A DNA stretch of 64,000 bases from Symbiobacterium thermophilum IAM 14863. Lineage in GTDB: Bacteria > Bacillota > Sulfobacillia > Symbiobacteriales > Symbiobacteriaceae. The DNA is taken from contig NC_006177.1 of the NCBI RefSeq assembly GCF_000009905.1, forward strand, positions 3,482,595 to 3,546,594, written 5' to 3'. Of the stretch, positions 9,085 to 43,957 are shown in pieces. The position numbers and the translations under genes are program-made. Below the pieces are notes generated by a model that was not told the origin of the DNA, ran no database searches, and saw nothing but the letters and a program-made list of their open reading frames with translations. Numbering within the stretch: position 1 is the first letter of the stretch; every line of letters begins with the position of its first letter.

Positions 9085-10257
9085 ATGCAGATTCCACGTT
9101 CGCTGGTACTCAAGCTCGCCGCGCTCGCGCTCCTGGTCGCCGCGGGGACCGCGTCCGTCGCGGCCCCGGCTGCGGCTGCGCCCGCGGAAACCGGCGCGTC
9201 GGCGCCGGGGGCCCCGGCGACCGCGTCCGCCGCCGATCCGGCTTCGACCCGAGTCCTGCCGCTGCGCGAGGCGCTTTCCCTGGCCGAGCGGTACAACCCC
9301 GGGTTGCGGCTCGCGGCGCTCCAGATGGAGGTGGCCCGGACGGCCCGCCAGGCCGCGCCGGCCGGCGCGCCCGCCCTGGCCCCGCTGGCCGCAGCTTACC
9401 TGCAGGCGCAGTACGGGCTGACAATCCCGACCGAGGCGATCACGAGCCAGGCCGTGGGCCAGCAGGCCACCTACGCCTACGAGCAGGCCGTCGCCCAGTA
9501 CCAGACCGCGCGACAGCAAGTCCGGGCCGGGGCGCTGCAGGCCTACGTGGAATGGCAGAAGGCCGTGGCCACGGTGGAGGCACAGCGGGCCGCGCTGGCG
9601 CGCACGCAGACCCAGCTCGCCAACGTGGAGGCCGCCGTGGCGGTGGGCTCCGCGGCGCCCTACGACCTGCTGCAGGTGCAGACCGCCCTGGCGGGGCAGG
9701 AGGCGGCCTTGGCCGGGGCGGAGGCCATGGAGCAGGGGGCCCGCAGCGCGCTGGGCCAGGTGATCGGCGTGCCCCTGGCGCCGGACGTGCAGCCCGAACC
9801 GCTCGCCCTCAGTGCCACCGAGGTGGCGCTGCCCGACGACCTGGATGCGCTGATCGACCGGGCGATCCGCCGGCGGCCCGACCTGCGGGAGGCAGCCGTG
9901 CAGCTGGCCGGCCGCCGGCAGCAATCCGGCCTGGCCACGGACGGCGGCGCAGCCGCCGAGGTGCAGGCCGCGTCCACCTATGGCATGGCGCTCGCCCAGG
10001 CACGGGCCGAGATCACCCGGGCCTGGCTCGCCGCCCGGGGCTCCCTGGAGGAGCTGAAGGCCCGCGAGAAGGCCGTGGAGATGGCCCGGGAAGCCCTGCG
10101 GCTCGCGGAGCTGCGCTACGACGCCGGCATCGCGACCTGGGTCGAGGTGCAGAGCGCCTCGGCAGCCGCCCTTGAGGCGGAAGCCGGGCGTATCCAGGCC
10201 GCCGCGAACCTGCTGGTGCGGATGATGGAGCTCAGCCATGCCGTCGGCGACGGGTAA
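9085..10257 (+). CDS. TolC-like outer-membrane-efflux-family protein (short)
   Basis: The protein has a signal peptide (residues 1-37, ending AAPAAAAPA) and two TolC-family repeats: one begins LREALSLAERYNPGLRLA (about 57) and the second PDDLDALIDRAIRRRPDLREA (about 250), each followed by long Ala/Gln/Glu-rich coiled helices. TolC proteins form the exit duct of tripartite pumps. At 390 residues it is shorter than typical family members, and the segments that would supply outer-membrane beta strands (about 90-120 and 275-300) are short and Ala-rich. In an organism thought to lack an ordinary outer membrane it may be a cell-wall-spanning duct (inference). First gene of the efflux operon. Confidence 0.75.
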   Translation: MQIPRSLVLKLAALALLVAAGTASVAAPAAAAPAETGASAPGAPATASAADPASTRVLPLREALSLAERYNPGLRLAALQMEVARTARQAAPAGAPALAPLAAAYLQAQYGLTIPTEAITSQAVGQQATYAYEQAVAQYQTARQQVRAGALQAYVEWQKAVATVEAQRAALARTQTQLANVEAAVAVGSAAPYDLLQVQTALAGQEAALAGAEAMEQGARSALGQVIGVPLAPDVQPEPLALSATEVALPDDLDALIDRAIRRRPDLREAAVQLAGRRQQSGLATDGGAAAEVQAASTYGMALAQARAEITRAWLAARGSLEELKAREKAVEMAREALRLAELRYDAGIATWVEVQSASAAALEAEAGRIQAAANLLVRMMELSHAVGDG

Positions 10258-33657: not shown

Positions 33658-33674
33658 CCGCAGGGTGCGGGAAA

Positions 33675-33720
33675 GGGGGCTGTCCCGAGGTCATCTCGGA
33701 TGACTCTCGGGACAGCCCCC
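33675..33720. terminator. Bidirectional terminator between cutC and the hydrogenase operon
   Basis: GGGGGCTGTCCCGAG pairs with CTCGGGACAGCCCCC across an inner TCATC/GATGA stem. It lies between convergent genes and shares its core with 2545 and 21244. Confidence 0.75.
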
Positions 33721-33764: not shown

Positions 33765-34364
33765 TTACGATCGCGCCGCGGCCCTCGGCGACATCGACCG
33801 GGCGATGCCCGACGCGGTCGCAACGCGCCGCGACCGCACCCGCTGGTCGATGGCGGTGCGCCTGACCAGCGTCAGGGCCCGGGCCAGGCAGACCTCGACG
33901 CACGCCGGGCCGCCCGGCCGGCCGATGCAGAGATCGCACTTGTGCGCCACGTACCGCTCCTTGGGGACCTTGCCGTCGGGCGTGTCCATCTTCAGCCCCG
34001 GCTGTTCCACCCGCGCGCCGTTCTCCAGCGCCGGCACCATGTCCATGGCGCCGAAGGGGCAGGCCAGCACGCAGGTCTTGCAGCCGATGCACCTCTCCTG
34101 CTTCACCAGCACCACGCCGTCCTGCCGCACGATGGCCCCGACCGGGCAGGCGTTGGCGCACGGAGCGTCCTCGCAGTGGCGGCACTGGATCGGCATGGTC
34201 ACCCGGGAGGTGCGCACCACCCGCAGCCGGGGTTGGAAGGGAATCTTCATCTCGCCGGCCGTGGTGACCGATGTGCCCAGATGGGCGACGGCGCAGGCGA
34301 TCTCGCAGGACTGGCACCCGATGCACTTGGTCGGGTCGGCCAGCACGAACGCGCTCTTCGTCAT
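33765..34364 (-). CDS. HycB-like polyferredoxin subunit
   Basis: The 199-residue protein has four cysteine clusters for [4Fe-4S] centres: CIGCQSCEIAC (about 14), CRHCEDAPCANACP (about 61), CIGCKTCVLACP (about 92) and CDLC with ACVEVC (about 142). It is of the HycB/FdhB/HydN type and should wire electrons between formate dehydrogenase and hydrogenase. It is the last gene of the operon and overlaps the hydrogenase gene by 4 nt. The C-terminal 25 residues after LTLVRR are Arg/Ala-rich and without clusters. Confidence 0.9.
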   Translation of the reverse strand: MTKSAFVLADPTKCIGCQSCEIACAVAHLGTSVTTAGEMKIPFQPRLRVVRTSRVTMPIQCRHCEDAPCANACPVGAIVRQDGVVLVKQERCIGCKTCVLACPFGAMDMVPALENGARVEQPGLKMDTPDGKVPKERYVAHKCDLCIGRPGGPACVEVCLARALTLVRRTAIDQRVRSRRVATASGIARSMSPRAAARS

Positions 34365-35731
34365 GCCTTGCGCCTCCTCGGCGTGTAGCTGGTGTGCAGC
34401 AGGTGATGCGATTTCTCGCCCAACGGCTTGCCCAGGAACTCCTTGTAGATCTTCTTGATGTCCGGGTTCTCGTTGGACTTCCTGTGGGGCAACTGGGCGT
34501 CATGCCGGTACGTGGACTCCGTGCGGGCCATGCGGGCGCACAGCCGGTCCGAGGGCAGGAGCGCCTTGGGCTGGCCGCCGCCGGAGACGCAGCCCACCGG
34601 GCAGGTCATGACCTCCATGAAGTGGAAGTCGGCCTTCCCCGCCTTCACCTGCTCCAGCACCGGGGCGACGTTCTTCAGGCCGGAGACCACGCAGACCTTC
34701 AGCTCCAGGTCCTCGATCTTCACGGTGGCGTACCGCACGCCCTCGCCGCCGCGCACGAACTTCAGGTCCAGCTCGGGGATTGGCTTCTTGGCGATCACCT
34801 CATACGCCGTCCGGAGGGCCGCTTCCATCACTCCGCCGGTCGCGCCGAAGATGGTGCCGGCACCCGTGTAGAGCCCCAGCGGCCGGTCGTACTCCTCCTC
34901 CGGCAGCGCGTTGAAGTCGATGCCGGCGTCCTTGATCAGGTGCGCCAGCTCCCGGGTGGTGATGACCACGTCCACGTCCCGGTAGCCGCTGGCCTTCATC
35001 TCCGGCCGGCCGGACTCGAAGTCCTTGCAGGTACAGGGCATGACGGAGACGCTGTAGACCTTCGCCGGGTCGACATTGTCCACCTTGGCCCCATAGGTCT
35101 TGAACAGGGCGCCGGCCATCTGCTGCGGCGACTTGCAGGTGGACAGGTGCGGCAGCAGCTCGGGATAGGTCTGCTCCAGGTACTTCACCCAGGCCGGGCA
35201 GCAGCTGGTGAACATCGGCAGGGTGCCGCCCTTGGTCACCCGCTCGATCAGCTCGTTGCCCTCCTCCATGATGGTCAGGTCGGCAGTGAAGTCGGTGGAG
35301 TAGACCCGGTCGAAGCCCAGCCGGCGCAGCGCCGCGGCCATCTTGCCCGGCGCCAGGCTGCCCAGCGGCATGCCGAACTCCTCGGCGATGGCCACGCGGA
35401 CCGCCGGGGCCACCTGCACCATGACGTACCTGTCCGGGTCCGCCAGGGCCTCCTTTACCAGCTTCGCCCGGCCCTCGTTCCAGGCGGCGAACAGCGGCTC
35501 CTTCACGGAGGGCAGCAGCCCACGCTCGGCCAGCTTCTGTTCGCGGGGGGTGAGGCCGTCGTCCCAGATCGAGCCGTAGGAGCTGCAGACCTGGACGCAC
35601 TGGCCGCACATCACGCAGATCTCCTGGTCAACCGACTGCGGCTTCCCCGGCTCGCCGACGATGGCGTCCACCGGGCAGACTTCGGCACAGCGACGGCAAC
35701 CGGTGCAGAGTTCCTGATCGATGAAAATCAC
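34361..35731 (-). CDS. [FeFe]-hydrogenase catalytic subunit
   Basis: The 456-residue protein begins with two [4Fe-4S] motifs (CTGCRRCAEVCP at 9-20, CVMCGQCVQVC at 39-49). H-cluster motifs follow: L1 TSCCPAW (175-181), L2 MPCTCKDFE (231-239) and L3 MEVMTCPVGCVSGGGQP (372-388). L3 has Thr where most members have Ala before the Cys. The enzyme makes or oxidises H2. The absence of NADH-binding partners and the presence of formate dehydrogenase and two polyferredoxins suggest HydA2 of a hydrogen-dependent CO2 reductase (inference). The GTG at 35731 follows AGGAGGG. Maturases HydE/F/G are not in the window. Confidence 0.92.
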   Translation of the reverse strand: MIFIDQELCTGCRRCAEVCPVDAIVGEPGKPQSVDQEICVMCGQCVQVCSSYGSIWDDGLTPREQKLAERGLLPSVKEPLFAAWNEGRAKLVKEALADPDRYVMVQVAPAVRVAIAEEFGMPLGSLAPGKMAAALRRLGFDRVYSTDFTADLTIMEEGNELIERVTKGGTLPMFTSCCPAWVKYLEQTYPELLPHLSTCKSPQQMAGALFKTYGAKVDNVDPAKVYSVSVMPCTCKDFESGRPEMKASGYRDVDVVITTRELAHLIKDAGIDFNALPEEEYDRPLGLYTGAGTIFGATGGVMEAALRTAYEVIAKKPIPELDLKFVRGGEGVRYATVKIEDLELKVCVVSGLKNVAPVLEQVKAGKADFHFMEVMTCPVGCVSGGGQPKALLPSDRLCARMARTESTYRHDAQLPHRKSNENPDIKKIYKEFLGKPLGEKSHHLLHTSYTPRRRKA

Positions 35732-35742
35732 GGCGGTCCCTC

Positions 35743-36327
35743 CTACCCGACGACGTTCTTCACGGACTCGAGCACGGCCAGGGCGGCCTCCAGGTTCCGG
35801 GTCCGGCGCAGCTCATCGGGTCGGACGACCTGCAGCGCCTCCCGCGGGCAGTTGGCGACGCAGGCCGGGCCGCCCTCGACCCCGATGCACCGGTCGCACT
35901 TGCTGGCCACGAACACATCCTGCAGCACCGGCCCCTCGCCGGTCTCCTCGGTCAGCCGCAGCTGCTTCACCTGCTCGCCGTTCTTGTAGTAGGGCACCAT
36001 CTCCATGGCCCCGAACGGACAGGCCAGGACGCAGGTCTTGCAGCCGATGCAGGTCTCCTGGTCGACGTCGATGATGCCGTCCTTCTGCGTGATCGCGCCC
36101 ACCGGGCAGGCGTTGGCGCAGGGAGCGTCCTCGCAGTGCCGGCACTGCACCGGCATGGTGACCTCGGCAGTGTGCACCAGGTACAGCCGGGGGATGATGG
36201 GCGTGGTCACCTGGCCGACCGTCTTCACGGGCACGTCGGAGTGGACCACGAAGCAGGAAACCTCACAGACCTTGCAGCCGATACACTTATGGGGATCCGC
36301 CACGACAAAGGCGTTGAGCGCGCACAT
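35743..36327 (-). CDS. HycB-like polyferredoxin subunit
   Basis: The 194-residue protein has four [4Fe-4S] motifs: CIGCKVCEVSC (about 15), CRHCEDAPCANACP (about 62), CIGCKTCVLACP (about 93) and CDRC with ACVANCP (about 143). It is clearly paralogous to the protein at 33765. The two probably form an electron wire of eight clusters between formate dehydrogenase and hydrogenase, like HycB3/HycB4 in hydrogen-dependent CO2 reductase (family knowledge). The ATG at 36327 has GAGGAGG upstream. It sits between the formate dehydrogenase and hydrogenase genes. Confidence 0.9.
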   Translation of the reverse strand: MCALNAFVVADPHKCIGCKVCEVSCFVVHSDVPVKTVGQVTTPIIPRLYLVHTAEVTMPVQCRHCEDAPCANACPVGAITQKDGIIDVDQETCIGCKTCVLACPFGAMEMVPYYKNGEQVKQLRLTEETGEGPVLQDVFVASKCDRCIGVEGGPACVANCPREALQVVRPDELRRTRNLEAALAVLESVKNVVG

Positions 36328-36352: not shown

Positions 36353-38401
36353 TTAGGCGCTGACCTTTTCTACCCGTACGGCACAGACCTTGTACTCCGG
36401 GGTCTTCGAGACCGGGTCCAGGGCGCTGTTGGTCAGCAGGTTGCCGGCGGCCTCGGTATAGTGGAACGTGATGAAGGTGACGCCCTTCGGTACTCGGGCC
36501 GTCACCTCGGCCCGGACCACCACCGAGCCCCGGCGTGTGGTCACCCGGACGTAGTCGCCGTGGGCGACGCCCAGAGATGCCGCGTCCGCGGGGTTGATCT
36601 CCACCCACTCCTCGGGCGCCACGCCGTCCAGGCCCCAGCAGTTGCGGGTCATCGTGCCGGTGTGGTAGTGCGCCGTCCGTCGGCCCGTCGTCAGGACCAG
36701 CGGGTACTCCTCGTCGGGCAGCTCCGCCGGCGGGCGCCACTCGATGGCGGAGAACTTGCCGAGGCCCCGGCTGAACTTGCCCACGTGGAGGATCGGGGTG
36801 CCCGGGTGCTCCTCATTGGGGCAGGGCCAGTGGAGGCCGCCCAGCTTCTCCAGCCGCTCGTAGGTGACGCCGGCGTAGGAGGGCGCGAGGGTGCGCAGTT
36901 CGTTGAAGATGTCTTTCGGAGAGTTGTAATCGGCAGGGTAATCCATGGCCCGCATGATGTCCCGCAGGATCATCCAGTCGGGCCGGGCGTTGCCCTGGGG
37001 CTCCATCGCCTTGCGGACCCGCTGCACCCGGCGCTCGGTATTGGTAAAGGTCCCGTCCTTCTCCGCCCAGGTGGCGCCGGGCAGCACCACGTCGGCCAGG
37101 GCCGCGGATTCGGTGAGGAAGATGTCCTGCACCACCAGGAAGTCCACGTGCTCCAGGCAGTGGCGGACGTGGTTGACGTCGGGGTCCGAGCGCATGGGGT
37201 TCTCGCCCATGACGTAAAGGAACCGGACCTTGCCCTCCTCGATGCCCCGGAGCACGTCGGAGATGGCCATGCCCATCCTGTCGCTGAGCGGTCGGCCCCA
37301 GGCCTTCTCGAACTTCTCCCGGTTCTTGGGATCGGTGACCGGCTGGTAGGCCGGGTAGACGTTGGGCAGGGCCCCCATGTCGCAGGCCCCCTGCACGTTG
37401 TTCTGGCCCCGCAGCGGGTTGACGCCCGCCTTGGGTTTGCCCAGGTTGCCCGTCATCAGGGCCAGGTTGGCGATGGAGAGCACGTTGTCCACGCCTGAGG
37501 TGTGCTGGGTGATGCCCATGGTGTAGTAGGTGGCCGCGTTTTCGGCCGTGGCGAACAGCCGGGCGGCCTGCCGTACCTTCTCGGCCGGCACGCCGGTGAT
37601 GCCCTCCACCTTCTCGGGGGCGTACTTCAGCACCGTTTCCCGGCAGGCCTCGAAGTTCTCCGTGCGGCTCCGGATGAACGCCTCGTCCGCCAGCCCCTCG
37701 GTGACGATGACGTACATCATGGCGTTCAGCAGCGCCACGTCGGAGCCGGGGTTGTGCCGCATGTACACGTCGGCGTGCTTCGCCAGCTCCGTCTCCCGCG
37801 GGTCGGCCACGATCAGCCGGGCGCCGCGGCGGTGGGCCTCCAGCATGCGGATGCCGATGATCGGGTGACACTCGGTGGTGTTGGTGCCGATCGCGAAGAT
37901 GGCATCGCCGGGCCCCATGTCCTGCAGTTCGTTGATGGTGTTGGTCATCGCTCCGGAACCAAACGCTGTGCCCAGACCGGACACCGTCGGAGCGTGTCAG
38001 AGACGGGCGCAGTGGTCGACGTTGTTGGTGCCCACCACCGCGCGCATGAGCTTCTGCATCAGGTAGTTCTCTTCGTTGGTGCAGCGGGCCGAGCTGAAGG
38101 CCGCCAGGGCGTCAGGCCCGTAGTCCCGGATCGTCTCCTTCATCTTGGAGGCGACCAGGTGGATGGCCTCATCCCACGACGCCTCCACCAGCTCCCCGTT
38201 CTTTCGGATGAGCGGCGTGGTGAGCCGCTTCTGCCGGTCGATGAAGTCGTAACCGAAGTGGCCCTTCAGGCAGAGGATGCCCTGGTTGACGGACCGGGGG
38301 TCGTCGTTGGGCGTCACGCCCACGACCTGGTCCCCTTCCACGTTCAGGTAGAACGTGCAGCCCGTTCCGCAGTAGGGACAGGTGGTCAGGACTTGCTTCA
38401 C
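36353..38401 (-). CDS. fdhF: Selenocysteine-containing formate dehydrogenase (FdhF type)
   Basis: This is one 682-residue reading frame with an in-frame TGA at codon 135 (37997-37999). Both halves share the frame and both are conserved. The N-terminal [4Fe-4S] motif has C8, C11, C15 and C44. The TGA lies in the active-site sequence NNVDHCARL-U-HAPTVSGLGT, aligning with U140 of E. coli FdhF. A SECIS-like hairpin follows directly. The C-terminal half is the molybdopterin domain, ending EYKVCAVRVEKV. It interconverts formate and CO2 with a Mo- or W-pterin. GTG start with GGGAGGAG. It is not a pseudogene. Confidence 0.93.
37949..37999 (-). promoter_or_regulatory. UGA codon and bacterial SECIS element
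   Basis: On the minus strand TGA (37999-37997) is followed by an outer stem CGCTCCG (37988-37994) / CGGAGCG (37949-37955) and an apical stem GTGTCC / GGGCAC closing the loop GGTCT (37974-37978). The GGTCT loop begins 18 nt after the TGA, the same loop sequence and, from memory, the same spacing as in E. coli fdhF. It should recruit SelB. Confidence 0.85.
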
Positions 38402-38432: not shown

Positions 38433-39296
38433 CTAGTCCGCGGCCGACGCCGCCATCGACTGGTCGGGGGTCGCCGGGGCCTGGCGCACGTACACGAACC
38501 AGTAAGCCGTTGCGACGAAGAGCGCGCCGCCCACGAAGTTGCCCAGCGCGGACGGGATCCAGTTCCTGGTGATGATGTTGGACCACGTCAGCGTGTCCAG
38601 CTTGGCGCCCAGGTTGGCCGCCTCGACCACGGCCGGGATGTGCTTGGCAAACCAGCCCGCGGGCAGGTAGTAGAAGTTGGCCACCGAGTTCTCGAAGGCG
38701 CTCATCACGAAGACCATGACCCCGATGTAGAGGGAGGCGATCTTCGAGATGACCTCCTTCGAGGCGAAGGCCATCCAGACGCCCAGGCAGATGAGCCAGT
38801 TGCAGAGGACGCCCCGGACGAAGACCTGCCACCAGGTGAGGTTGACCTTGGTGACCGCCGTGCGCACGGCCTCCGCGCCCAGTTCGGCGTTGTTGAACAG
38901 GAACAGCCCGCTCTGGTAGTACAGCCAGGCGTAGGCCGTGGCGCCGACGACGTTGGCCAGGAGAACGACGCCGAGGACCTTCAGCATCTTCTTCCAGCCG
39001 ACCCGCTCGTCCATGAACGCAAGCCAGAGCAGCGCATCGCCGGTGAAGAGTTCGCCGCCGCAGATCACGGCAAAGATGACGCCGATGGAGAAGAGGGACC
39101 CCTTGGCGAACTGCTGCAGACCTGCGCCGAGGAAGGTAAAGTCGTGGCAGATCATCGTCGCAGCTTCTGCGCCCATGCCGGTGAAGGCGCCGCCCAGGAG
39201 GCCCAGGACAATCAACTTCGGGATGGAGTTGCTCGCCCGGGTCTCGTTGGCCTGGGCCACAGCGAGTGCGGTTTCCTGCGGACTAGCGAAAGCCAT
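38433..39296 (-). CDS. Formate channel of the FocA/FNT family (His to Asn variant)
   Basis: The 287-residue membrane protein has the formate-nitrite transporter repeats: GLLGGAFTGMG and GGELFTGDALL (residues 81-91, with the gating Thr at 85), then LCNWLICLGVWMAF, and SAFENSVANFYYLPAG (199-214). The central His of FocA (H209, usually in FEHSVAN) is Asn at 203. Work on E. coli FocA reported that His-to-Asn exchange favours formate efflux. As first gene of the operon, 31 nt before fdhF, it most likely exports formate made from H2 and CO2 (inference). ATG at 39296 with GGGAGG upstream. Confidence 0.9.
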   Translation of the reverse strand: MAFASPQETALAVAQANETRASNSIPKLIVLGLLGGAFTGMGAEAATMICHDFTFLGAGLQQFAKGSLFSIGVIFAVICGGELFTGDALLWLAFMDERVGWKKMLKVLGVVLLANVVGATAYAWLYYQSGLFLFNNAELGAEAVRTAVTKVNLTWWQVFVRGVLCNWLICLGVWMAFASKEVISKIASLYIGVMVFVMSAFENSVANFYYLPAGWFAKHIPAVVEAANLGAKLDTLTWSNIITRNWIPSALGNFVGGALFVATAYWFVYVRQAPATPDQSMAASAAD

Positions 39297-39349: not shown

Positions 39350-39366
39350 AAGCAAGGCGCGTGCCA
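39350..39366 (-). promoter_or_regulatory. Sigma-54 (-24/-12) promoter of the formate/hydrogenase operon
   Basis: On the minus strand TGGCACGCGCCTTGCTT fits TGGCACG-N4-TTGCT exactly, with GG and GC dinucleotides 10 nt apart. It lies 54 nt upstream of the channel gene start. No sigma-70 promoter is evident here. The sigma-54 activator at 40950-42464 is the likely partner. Confidence 0.88.
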
Positions 39367-39517: not shown

Positions 39518-39571
39518 CAGTCTGTATGCAAATATTGCAGACTGTGCACTTTCTGCAGACGGGCACTTCCT
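39518..39571. promoter_or_regulatory. Candidate upstream activator sites
   Basis: CAGTCTG (39518-39524) and CAGACTG (39538-39544) form an inverted repeat. They overlap two imperfect direct repeats, TGCAGACTGTGCACTTTC (39536-39553) and TGCAGACGGGCACTTCC (39554-39570). The cluster lies about 150-220 nt upstream of the -24 box, the normal distance for enhancer sites of a sigma-54 activator. Confidence 0.55.
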
Positions 39572-39592
39572 GCACGGTAGCCCCGGGGACGG

Positions 39593-40771
39593 TCAGACGG
39601 CGCTGATCCGGGCGGCGGCCGCATCCCGGTTGAACGCCGCGATGGCCTCCTCGGTGCGGTCCTCTTCCCGCGCCAGGTCGGCCGTCGTCACCGGAACGCC
39701 GACGGCCGATCCCAACCCGGCCAGCACCTGATCCACCGGCAGCGGCCCGGAGGGGCCGACGATCCACCGGCAGATGCCCAGGATCTTCGCCGCGCGCGCC
39801 GCATCCGCTGTCCAGTCCGCGGGCGAGCCCTCCCGCTGCCTCCGGACGTCGGCCGAGCGCACCGCCTCCGGCGGGCAGGGCAGCTCTCCCCGGGCCAGGA
39901 ACTGGATCAGCCGGAACACCTCTTCCCGGCGTTCCCGCCTCCTGCGCCTGACCGCTCCCCGCAGGGCTGCTGCAGTGGCCAGGGTGTCCAGGCCGTACGC
40001 GTTGCAGAGCCAGTTGGCCTCCCGCAGGTCCGCCTCATCCACCAGCCCCAGCTCCGCGAAGGCCTGCCGGGTCTTGTGGCCGAGCACTGCCGAACGGCAG
40101 GGCCGCGGGCAGCCCGCGCACCCGGCCGCGACCGGCGCCCCATCGACCTTGCCGCCGCGCACCACCAGGGCCTTCAGTCCCTTGGCGCCCATGGCGGCCC
40201 CGAGTCCGGCGCGCCCCGCCGCACTGGCGGCTCCGTGCAGGATGCAGGCAAAGGGAACCTTCCGTTCGCCCGCAGGTCCGATCACCACCGCCTGCGCCGC
40301 CGGGTCGGCCAGCCCCGCGCGAAGCGCCGCCTGGGTCTCCACGGTCGTCAGTCCCCAGAGCCGGGACGCGTCCCGGAGTCTGGCGCCGCCTTCGAACACC
40401 TCCAGGTACACGGGTCGTTCAGCACGCCCCTCCACCACGAGGGCGGCAAAGCCCGCCCGCTGGAGAGCGGCCGCCCACGCGCCGCCGGCCTCGGCCTCCG
40501 CGTAGAGCCCCGTCACCGGCGAGAGCCCGGCCACCACCAGCCGGGATGCGCCCGGCAACGGCAGCGCCGCGCAGGCCCCGGCGGTGAAGGCGAGTCTGTT
40601 GCCGGGGCCCAGGGGGTCGGAGGCGGGATCCAGCCCGGCAAGCAGGCAGGCCGCTGCCCGCCCGCGCGGGCCTATGCACTTCCGGCCCCGAAGGGGGGGA
40701 AGCGGTTCCACCGTCACCTCGCGGCTCGACAGGTCCACCCGCAGCATTCGTTCGGCGGCACGGTCCACCAC
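39593..40771 (-). CDS. Short aldehyde ferredoxin oxidoreductase-like protein
   Basis: The product has 392 residues against about 600 for a full AOR. It keeps the N-terminal MLRVDLSSREV, the pterin-site-like AAMGAKGLKALVV, the cluster motif CAGCPRPC and a late Cys in GICRWIV. About 90 residues are missing between pterin site and cluster and about 100 more towards the C-terminus. GGRGLG at the N-terminus has become GPRGRA. It may be a reduced, perhaps non-catalytic AOR paralogue. GTG at 40771 has AGGGAG 7 nt upstream. It lies between the sigma-54 activator and the formate operon, on the same strand as both. Confidence 0.78.
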   Translation of the reverse strand: MVDRAAERMLRVDLSSREVTVEPLPPLRGRKCIGPRGRAAACLLAGLDPASDPLGPGNRLAFTAGACAALPLPGASRLVVAGLSPVTGLYAEAEAGGAWAAALQRAGFAALVVEGRAERPVYLEVFEGGARLRDASRLWGLTTVETQAALRAGLADPAAQAVVIGPAGERKVPFACILHGAASAAGRAGLGAAMGAKGLKALVVRGGKVDGAPVAAGCAGCPRPCRSAVLGHKTRQAFAELGLVDEADLREANWLCNAYGLDTLATAAALRGAVRRRRRERREEVFRLIQFLARGELPCPPEAVRSADVRRQREGSPADWTADAARAAKILGICRWIVGPSGPLPVDQVLAGLGSAVGVPVTTADLAREEDRTEEAIAAFNRDAAAARISAV

Positions 40772-40900
40772 GCATCGGCTCCCTTCGTCCACGTTTGGTG
40801 CGCCGTATGCGGCGGCCGTTTCCCCAACCCGCTCACCGCTTCCGGCGGTGGATGGCCTGAAGCAACGATCGTGCCAGCCTGCGCGGGGCCGATACACGAC

Positions 40901-40933
40901 GGCGGATGCTCCCCACCCGGCAGAGCATCCGCC
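40901..40933 (-). terminator. Hairpin after the sigma-54 activator gene
   Basis: GGCGGATGCTC and GAGCATCCGCC form an 11-bp stem with an 11-nt loop, 17 nt past the activator stop and before the short AOR gene. No T tract. Confidence 0.6.
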
Positions 40934-42481: not shown

Positions 42482-43957
42482 TCACGGCGGTGTGGCGATG
42501 GGCAGCGATACCCGGACGACGGCCCCGCCCCCGTGCGCGTCGGCCAGCTCGAGGCGGCCGTCCGCGTTCTCCACGATGGCCTTTACGATGGGCAACCCCA
42601 TCCCCAGCGACGAGCCGGACTTGGTGGTGAAGAACGGCTCCAGGACGCGTTCGCGGATCGCCGGGTCGAAGCCGGGGCCGTTGTCTGCCACCTCGAGGTA
42701 AACCCGGTCGTCTGCCCACGTGCGCACGGCGATCTCCTTGTGGGGCCAATCCACCTCGTCGAGGGCCTGCATCGCGTTGTTGAGAAGGTTGAGCACCACC
42801 TCTTCCAGATTGACGCTGTAACCGAAGACCTTGGGAAGCTGGTCTGCCTTCTCCAGCCGCAGGCGGATGCCATGCGCCTGGATCCGGTTGTCCATGAGCA
42901 GCAGCGCCCGCTCCACCACCTCGTTCAGGTCGCAGTACTCGTACCGCTGATTGCGGCTGTTCTTCAGAACATCCCGCAGGTGGTTGACGATGCTGTCGAT
43001 GCGGTCCACCTGGCGGGAGATGCGGGACAGGATGGCCACGATCTCGTCGGCCTGCGGAGGATCGGCCTGCACCAACAGGCAGAGCCCCGTCTCCGCCAGA
43101 ACCCGGATCGCGTTGAGGGGCTGGTTGATCTCGTGGACGATTCCTCCGCCGATAATAGCCAGGGTCGTCACCCTCGCCGCCCGGTTGACCGCCTCCCGGG
43201 CCTCGGCGATGCGGGCCTCGGCCTCCTTCTGCGCGGTGATGTCCCGGCCCACCGACTGGCACTCCACGAGCCGGCCCTCGGCGTCGAAGATCCCCCGGTT
43301 GACGAACTGCACCCAGCCGACCCCGCCGTCGGGCCGCGGGATCCGCGCCTCGGTGACGGTGGTGGGGTTCTCCGGCGAGAGCACGGCCAGCTGCCGGTGC
43401 ACCACCTCCCGGTCTTCGGGGTGGATGAGCCGGATGAAGTCGCTTCCGAGCAGCTCCTCCTCGGATCGGCCGAAGTACCGGCAGAAGGCCGGGTTCACGA
43501 AGGTCAGCCTGCCGTCGGGGGTAAACCGCCGGATCAGGTCCGTCTGATCCTCCACCACGGCCCGATATCGGGGATCGCTCTCCCGCAGCCGCCCTTCGGG
43601 CGCTTCGGCCACCGGCCGCAGGAGCAGCTGGGTCAGCCCCTCCGGGCCGGGGCGCGCCGTGACGGCCACCCGAATGCGCCCACCGTCCCGCCGGACAGCG
43701 TCAGTGTCCGACGGGTCCTCCTGTCGCCGGCCCAAAAGGGCTTCCCCATCGGGTAACACAGCGCCGACCGCCAGCCCGGGCAGCGCTTCAGGGCTGCATC
43801 CGAGCAGGCGTCCGGCGCTGGGATTGCCGTACCGGATCCGGCCGTCTGCCCCGACCAGCAGCACGGGCTCGGACAAGGGGTCCAGCAGTCCTCTTAGCCA
43901 GGACGGCAAAGGGACTCTCTCACCCGCTTGCGCAGCGATGGTCGTTCCCTCCTTCAC
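42482..43957 (-). CDS. Soluble PAS-PAS sensor histidine kinase
   Basis: The 491-residue protein has no transmembrane segment. Two PAS domains (about 25-110 and 130-250, the second with FVNPAFCRYFGRSEEELLG) precede the phospho-acceptor GGGIVHEINQPLNAIR (about 275) and an ATPase domain with NLLNNAMQAL and GMGLPIVKAIVE. The H-box type is that of NtrB/DctB kinases, which pair with sigma-54 activators. PAS domains could sense redox, gas or metabolite signals. The GTG at 43957 has no ribosome binding site; AAGGAGGG inside the ORF lies 7 nt before an ATC codon at 43939, so the true start is uncertain. Confidence 0.88.
   Translation of the reverse strand: MKEGTTIAAQAGERVPLPSWLRGLLDPLSEPVLLVGADGRIRYGNPSAGRLLGCSPEALPGLAVGAVLPDGEALLGRRQEDPSDTDAVRRDGGRIRVAVTARPGPEGLTQLLLRPVAEAPEGRLRESDPRYRAVVEDQTDLIRRFTPDGRLTFVNPAFCRYFGRSEEELLGSDFIRLIHPEDREVVHRQLAVLSPENPTTVTEARIPRPDGGVGWVQFVNRGIFDAEGRLVECQSVGRDITAQKEAEARIAEAREAVNRAARVTTLAIIGGGIVHEINQPLNAIRVLAETGLCLLVQADPPQADEIVAILSRISRQVDRIDSIVNHLRDVLKNSRNQRYEYCDLNEVVERALLLMDNRIQAHGIRLRLEKADQLPKVFGYSVNLEEVVLNLLNNAMQALDEVDWPHKEIAVRTWADDRVYLEVADNGPGFDPAIRERVLEPFFTTKSGSSLGMGLPIVKAIVENADGRLELADAHGGGAVVRVSLPIATPP

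Follow-up and report, generated by a model that had tools for sequence, protein, structure and literature searches.

The HDCR operon of Symbiobacterium thermophilum IAM 14863 is preceded by a perfect sigma-54 promoter sequence, P1, and we consider it highly probable from the sequence that P1 serves this operon and is switched by the adjacent kinase-activator pair via an upstream array of activator sites. Few known biocatalysts convert CO2 to formate as fast as HDCR, and its switching-on in cells is little described. Here, a single 10-kb block holds the predicted sensor, activator, and binding array and two predicted promoters, which opens a direct way to test what signal calls for HDCR. S. thermophilum is a CO2-requiring partner of Geobacillus, which makes this signal relevant to its dependence. 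The window analyzed, a stretch of 64,000 nucleotides, covers positions 3482595-3546594 of the single 3,566,135-base contig and has a GC content of 68.8%.

The sigma-54 promoter upstream of focA

39351..39366, minus strand: P1, sigma-54 promoter TGGCACG-N4-TTGCT upstream of focA; predicted +1 at about 39340

P1 (TGGCACGCGCCTTGCT) reads TGGCACG CGCC TTGCT, with the -24 GG and -12 GC core of a sigma-54 promoter at exact GG-to-GC spacing, and its 3' end lies 54 nt from the focA ATG (39296). The preliminary description had placed a minus-strand TGGCACG-N4-TTGCT element of exact spacing 54 nt before the channel gene, and the sequence confirms it; the coordinates given there, 39350-39366, designate the right element, with an exact span of 39351-39366. 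The perfect pattern TGGCACGN4TTGCW occurs twice in the window against 0.01 expected, and 0 of 100 dinucleotide shuffles reached two. The sigma-54 pattern with three mismatches is not enriched across the whole window (44 observed versus 57.5 expected), so the information lies in the perfect match alone; the loose pattern is uninformative in GC-rich DNA.

A search for rpoN, proposed earlier because a genome lacking it would exclude such a promoter, found one copy. The genome further encodes eight clear sigma-54 activators and one LevR-like activator. Perfect sites number seven genome-wide: an activator gene or rpoN lies within 2.5 kb of six (binomial p about 1e-10) and within 7 kb of all seven (p about 2e-10), p values that assume a uniform null in tests that are pattern searches. 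This clustering indicates that, in this genome, promoters are well predicted by a perfect match. One of the sites is located 57 nt before the rpoN open reading frame (G000:C1:265873, L027), suggesting possible autoregulation of rpoN, and the remaining sites are 0.5 to 6.4 kb from an activator gene. From reading the sequences, we take their targets to be lysine fermentation, proline catabolism, a molybdopterin oxidoreductase operon, and a full-length tungsten aldehyde oxidoreductase (AOR). The site before the full-length AOR gene (G000:C1:3110691, L033) stands beside a short activator (328 aa) that begins close to its own AAA+ domain.

The locus is also found in a congener, a same-genus MAG (G003, contig L065, apparently the same record as L076), so that conservation here refers to two genomes. 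All 12 specified core positions of P1 are identical in the congener (TGGCACGACTCTTGCT), compared to 114 of 247 positions (46%) elsewhere in the aligned intergenic region, where no other window of P1-core shape is fully identical. It is extremely improbable that P1 is a chance match and that an ordinary promoter reads the operon. The unenriched loose pattern speaks for a chance match, and the finding of no site at focA by a sigma-70-type consensus scan means little against it, because such scans are weak in GC-rich genomes; but the perfect matches greatly exceed expectation and cluster with activators, and the P1 core is conserved inside a diverged intergenic region. Judged by its sequence, P1 is a real sigma-54 promoter with a predicted start site, and rpoN, conservation in the congener, the upstream array, and the adjacent activator support the earlier proposal that it serves the formate/hydrogenase operon.

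The HDCR-type operon

38433..39296, minus strand: focA, formate/nitrite channel family (PF01226)
36353..38401, minus strand: fdhF, formate dehydrogenase (TIGR01591, above cut-off), with an in-frame UGA at 37997-37999 read as selenocysteine
37944..38002, minus strand: SECIS element at the fdhF UGA (RF01989, SECIS_3; E 1.8e-8, below gathering score)
35743..36327, minus strand: hycB-like polyferredoxin gene, best PDB match 7qv7_B (HDCR HycB4)
34361..35731, minus strand: hydA, [FeFe] hydrogenase of the HDCR HydA2 type (7qv7_D, E 5.7e-228; PF02906)
33765..34364, minus strand: second hycB-like polyferredoxin gene, last of the operon, best match HycB4
33672..33720, minus strand: strong stem-loop followed by TTTC, probable terminator

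Judged by sequence, the products of the focA-fdhF-hycB-hydA-hycB operon are a formate channel and an HDCR-type complex. All of the operon's proteins but FocA have the HDCR structure 7qv7 as their best PDB match, including FdhF (best solved match 7qv7 FdhF, E 2.3e-249), and both HycB-like proteins match HycB4 better than HycB3. FdhF, HydA2, and two HycB subunits, each closest to the HDCR structure, are therefore all present. The operon lacks the group 4 [NiFe] hydrogenase and the membrane subunits of an E. coli-type formate hydrogenlyase, FocA being its only membrane protein. The formate/hydrogenase operon of the preliminary description accordingly retains its formate enzyme and hydrogenase genes, which are of the HDCR type ([FeFe] hydrogenase, selenocysteine formate dehydrogenase) and not formate hydrogenlyase-like. 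A complete HDCR cluster has already been reported in S. thermophilum (PMC6119302).

FdhF combines an in-frame UGA with a SECIS_3 match that scores below Rfam's gathering score, as in a selenoprotein. Folding the RNA of the SECIS region by itself gave no better result than shuffles, so the SECIS assignment relies on the Rfam match. S. thermophilum has been listed with three selenocysteine FdhA proteins (PMC1794560). The stem-loop 3' of the last gene was read from the sequence and was not among the results of a consensus scan.

The kinase-activator pair, the upstream array, and a predicted second promoter

42482..43957, minus strand: PAS-domain histidine kinase (PAS, HisKA, HATPase_c), no apparent membrane segment
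40950..42464, minus strand: NtrC-type activator (receiver, AAA+ with GAFTGG loop, Fis-type HTH)
39527..39574, no strand assigned: upstream array of TGCA-N5-TGCA units at 39527-39539 and 39545-39557, with an imperfect third at 39562-39574

The adjacent kinase and sigma-54 activator mentioned in the preliminary description are indeed there, as a PAS histidine kinase and a protein with the receiver, AAA+, and Fis HTH domains of an NtrC-type response regulator; the link between the two is a prediction. The activator scores 211.9 bits against the FhlA profile NF011958 (cut-off, 830), and so is not assigned to FhlA, and 349.6 bits against the curated NtrC profile, also below its cut-off (558.6). It shares 72% identity with the activator of the congener, with nearly identical HTH regions, and its loop reads GAFTGG compared to GAFTGA in the congener.

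It is possible, if doubtful, that the HDCR-type complex acts mainly as a formate hydrogenlyase disposing of formate, with formate as the inducer, as with FhlA. That proposal concerns the enzyme rather than the promoter and is compatible with sigma-54 control by the adjacent pair. In its favor, one operon combines FocA, FdhF, and a hydrogenase and is accompanied by a sigma-54 activator; against it, the subunits match HDCR (7qv7) best, the hydrogenase is [FeFe], and the activator carries a receiver domain and falls far short of the FhlA cut-off. HDCR is reversible, so the direction is not readable from sequence, and formate disposal and CO2 reduction are both possible.

The array comprises TGCAAATATTGCA and TGCACTTTCTGCA plus the imperfect third unit. 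Their centers are about 193, 211, and 228 bp upstream of the predicted +1 of P1, within the distance of roughly 80 to 250 bp at which upstream activator sites are placed. The double TGCA-N5-TGCA unit is found once in the genome at 0 or 1 mismatch. In the congener, one unit is kept as TGCAGAATTTGCA at 7143 of L065, inside a longer palindrome. The adjacent NtrC-type activator likely binds this array; its assignment to P1 draws on adjacency and the unique array.

Gene order in the congener is the same: PAS kinase, activator, shortened AOR, focA, fdhF with UGA, hycB, hydA, and hycB. A second focA-like gene follows the congener's operon (L065:195-1070, minus strand), and the congener kinase (L065:9995-11953, minus strand) has several near-identical tandem PAS modules and may extend past the contig end. 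In another genome of the genus (G004, 99% complete), close relatives of both the activator and the operon's HydA are missing (best matches, 47% over part and 55%, respectively), as would be expected if the block were gained or lost as a whole.

40861..40876, minus strand: P2, perfect sigma-54 site (the second in the window) TGGCACG-N4-TTGCT, before the AOR-like gene
40901..40933, minus strand: hairpin 3' of the activator gene, probable terminator (folding z -4.1)
39593..40771, minus strand: shortened AOR-like gene, about 393 aa

P2 (TGGCACGATCGTTGCT) sits between the stop codon of the activator gene and the AOR-like gene and is retained at the equivalent place in the congener as TGGTATGCTTCTTGCT. 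The strong hairpin at 40901-40933 is probably a terminator parting the activator gene from P2. Neither this second site nor the array was part of the preliminary description. No TGCA-N5-TGCA-like units were found near P2.

Do other activators serve P1 and P2, while the neighboring pair controls something else? This is very unlikely. Eight clear activators are encoded in the genome, no array is recognizable near P2, and activators can act from a distance; against this, the array has no second copy in the genome and sits between P1 and the AOR-like gene that adjoins the activator, and pair and operon occur together in the congener, with close relatives of both missing from G004. The number of activators also counts against control by the adjacent pair as we propose it, as does the replacement of GAFTGA by GAFTGG.

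For control by the adjacent pair, we infer the following course. The cytoplasmic PAS histidine kinase would answer an internal cue and phosphorylate the adjacent NtrC-type activator, which would bind the TGCA-N5-TGCA array about 200 bp upstream of P1. The bound activator would then loop to the sigma-54 polymerase at P1, leading to promoter opening, and P1 would drive the focA-fdhF-hycB-hydA-hycB operon. P2 would put the AOR-like gene under sigma-54 control also, probably via the same activator.

The AOR-like protein has a complete AFOR_N domain and a fragment of AFOR_C (positions 69-139 of 385), compared to the complete AFOR_N and AFOR_C of AOR, and retains the CxxCxxxC motif and a C-terminal LGIC-type motif. 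Among the AOR frames listed in 299 genomes of the phylum, most have about 560 to 730 aa, and a few are shorter (238 to 543 aa, contig ends unchecked). With a dN/dS of 0.45 relative to the congener, the gene seems to be under moderate constraint. An AlphaFold model, built from three sequences with a mean pLDDT of 52, was too poor for use. It is unlikely that the shortened protein is a working part of the HDCR system, namely, a tungsten-cofactor carrier, an electron carrier, or a signal input. Such a part would be a pterin/iron-sulfur protein in which the middle of the enzyme has been lost, an idea that draws on the gene's own sigma-54 promoter, its position next to the HDCR operon, and its conservation in the congener.

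Comparison with other hydA loci and known systems

We compared 80 HydA2-type loci of close HydA relatives, using simple open reading frame calling. An activator gene is present in the fetched flanks of eight (the congener, six Clostridium loci, and one Acetobacterium locus), and none of the 62 loci with a callable operon has a credible sigma-54 site upstream of it; the lone weak candidate among the 62 is a site with three mismatches in Acetobacterium tundrae. Apparent sigma-54 sites at 9195 in two Clostridium loci were rejected as lying inside coding sequence. The six Clostridium loci (L077-L082) have a sigma-54 activator beside the HydA operon and no sigma-54 site before it. The activators of three of them (L077, L078, and L082) lack a receiver domain and resemble one-component PAS-type proteins.

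Taken singly, the parts of the S. thermophilum locus are ordinary, and the HDCR operon itself is known; for sigma-54 control of HDCR, we found no earlier report in the literature searched. The search, mostly outside subscription journals, returned no paper joining HDCR (spelled out) with sigma54 and a single one pairing HDCR with RpoN, whose passages on the subject hold no statement of RpoN control of the HDCR operon. In Sporomusa, according to the accessible part of one study, HDCR expression varies with substrate, and 24 SigL promoters are described, exemplified mainly by a betaine gene cluster (PMC12456013). Clostridial sigma-54 regulons, as far as their description in the main text of PMC6615313 goes, share the promoter class and activators with nearby target operons; about 10% of the activators there have receiver domains, and a term search of that main text found neither Symbiobacterium nor a target operon for a hydrogenase or formate dehydrogenase.

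The HDCR of Thermoanaerobacter kivui and Acetobacterium woodii likewise combines FdhF, two HycB-type subunits, and a HydA2-type [FeFe] hydrogenase in one operon. In contrast to these, the S. thermophilum operon has focA first and no fdhD, and the locus appears to have dedicated sigma-54 two-component control. FdhF of T. kivui is without selenocysteine (PMC6119302), unlike that of S. thermophilum. NtrB/NtrC-type units likewise consist of a PAS kinase without apparent membrane segment and a receiver-AAA+-Fis activator, but the S. thermophilum activator falls below the NtrC cut-off and its predicted target is a CO2/formate/H2 operon.

In E. coli, FhlA-controlled formate hydrogenlyase involves a sigma-54 promoter, upstream activator sites, a formate enzyme with a hydrogenase, and FocA, all of which have counterparts in the S. 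thermophilum locus. The TGCA-N5-TGCA array is presumably unlike FhlA sites, the hydrogenase is [FeFe] and not [NiFe], and a kinase and receiver-domain activator take the place of the formate-sensing FhlA. The FhlA-like logic with a two-component input proposed in the preliminary description therefore holds for the kinase and the receiver-domain activator, and its likeness to FhlA itself stops at an activator far below the FhlA cut-off. Together, the HDCR-type subunits and the two-component activator point to HDCR under two-component sigma-54 control, rather than an E. coli-type formate hydrogenlyase under FhlA.
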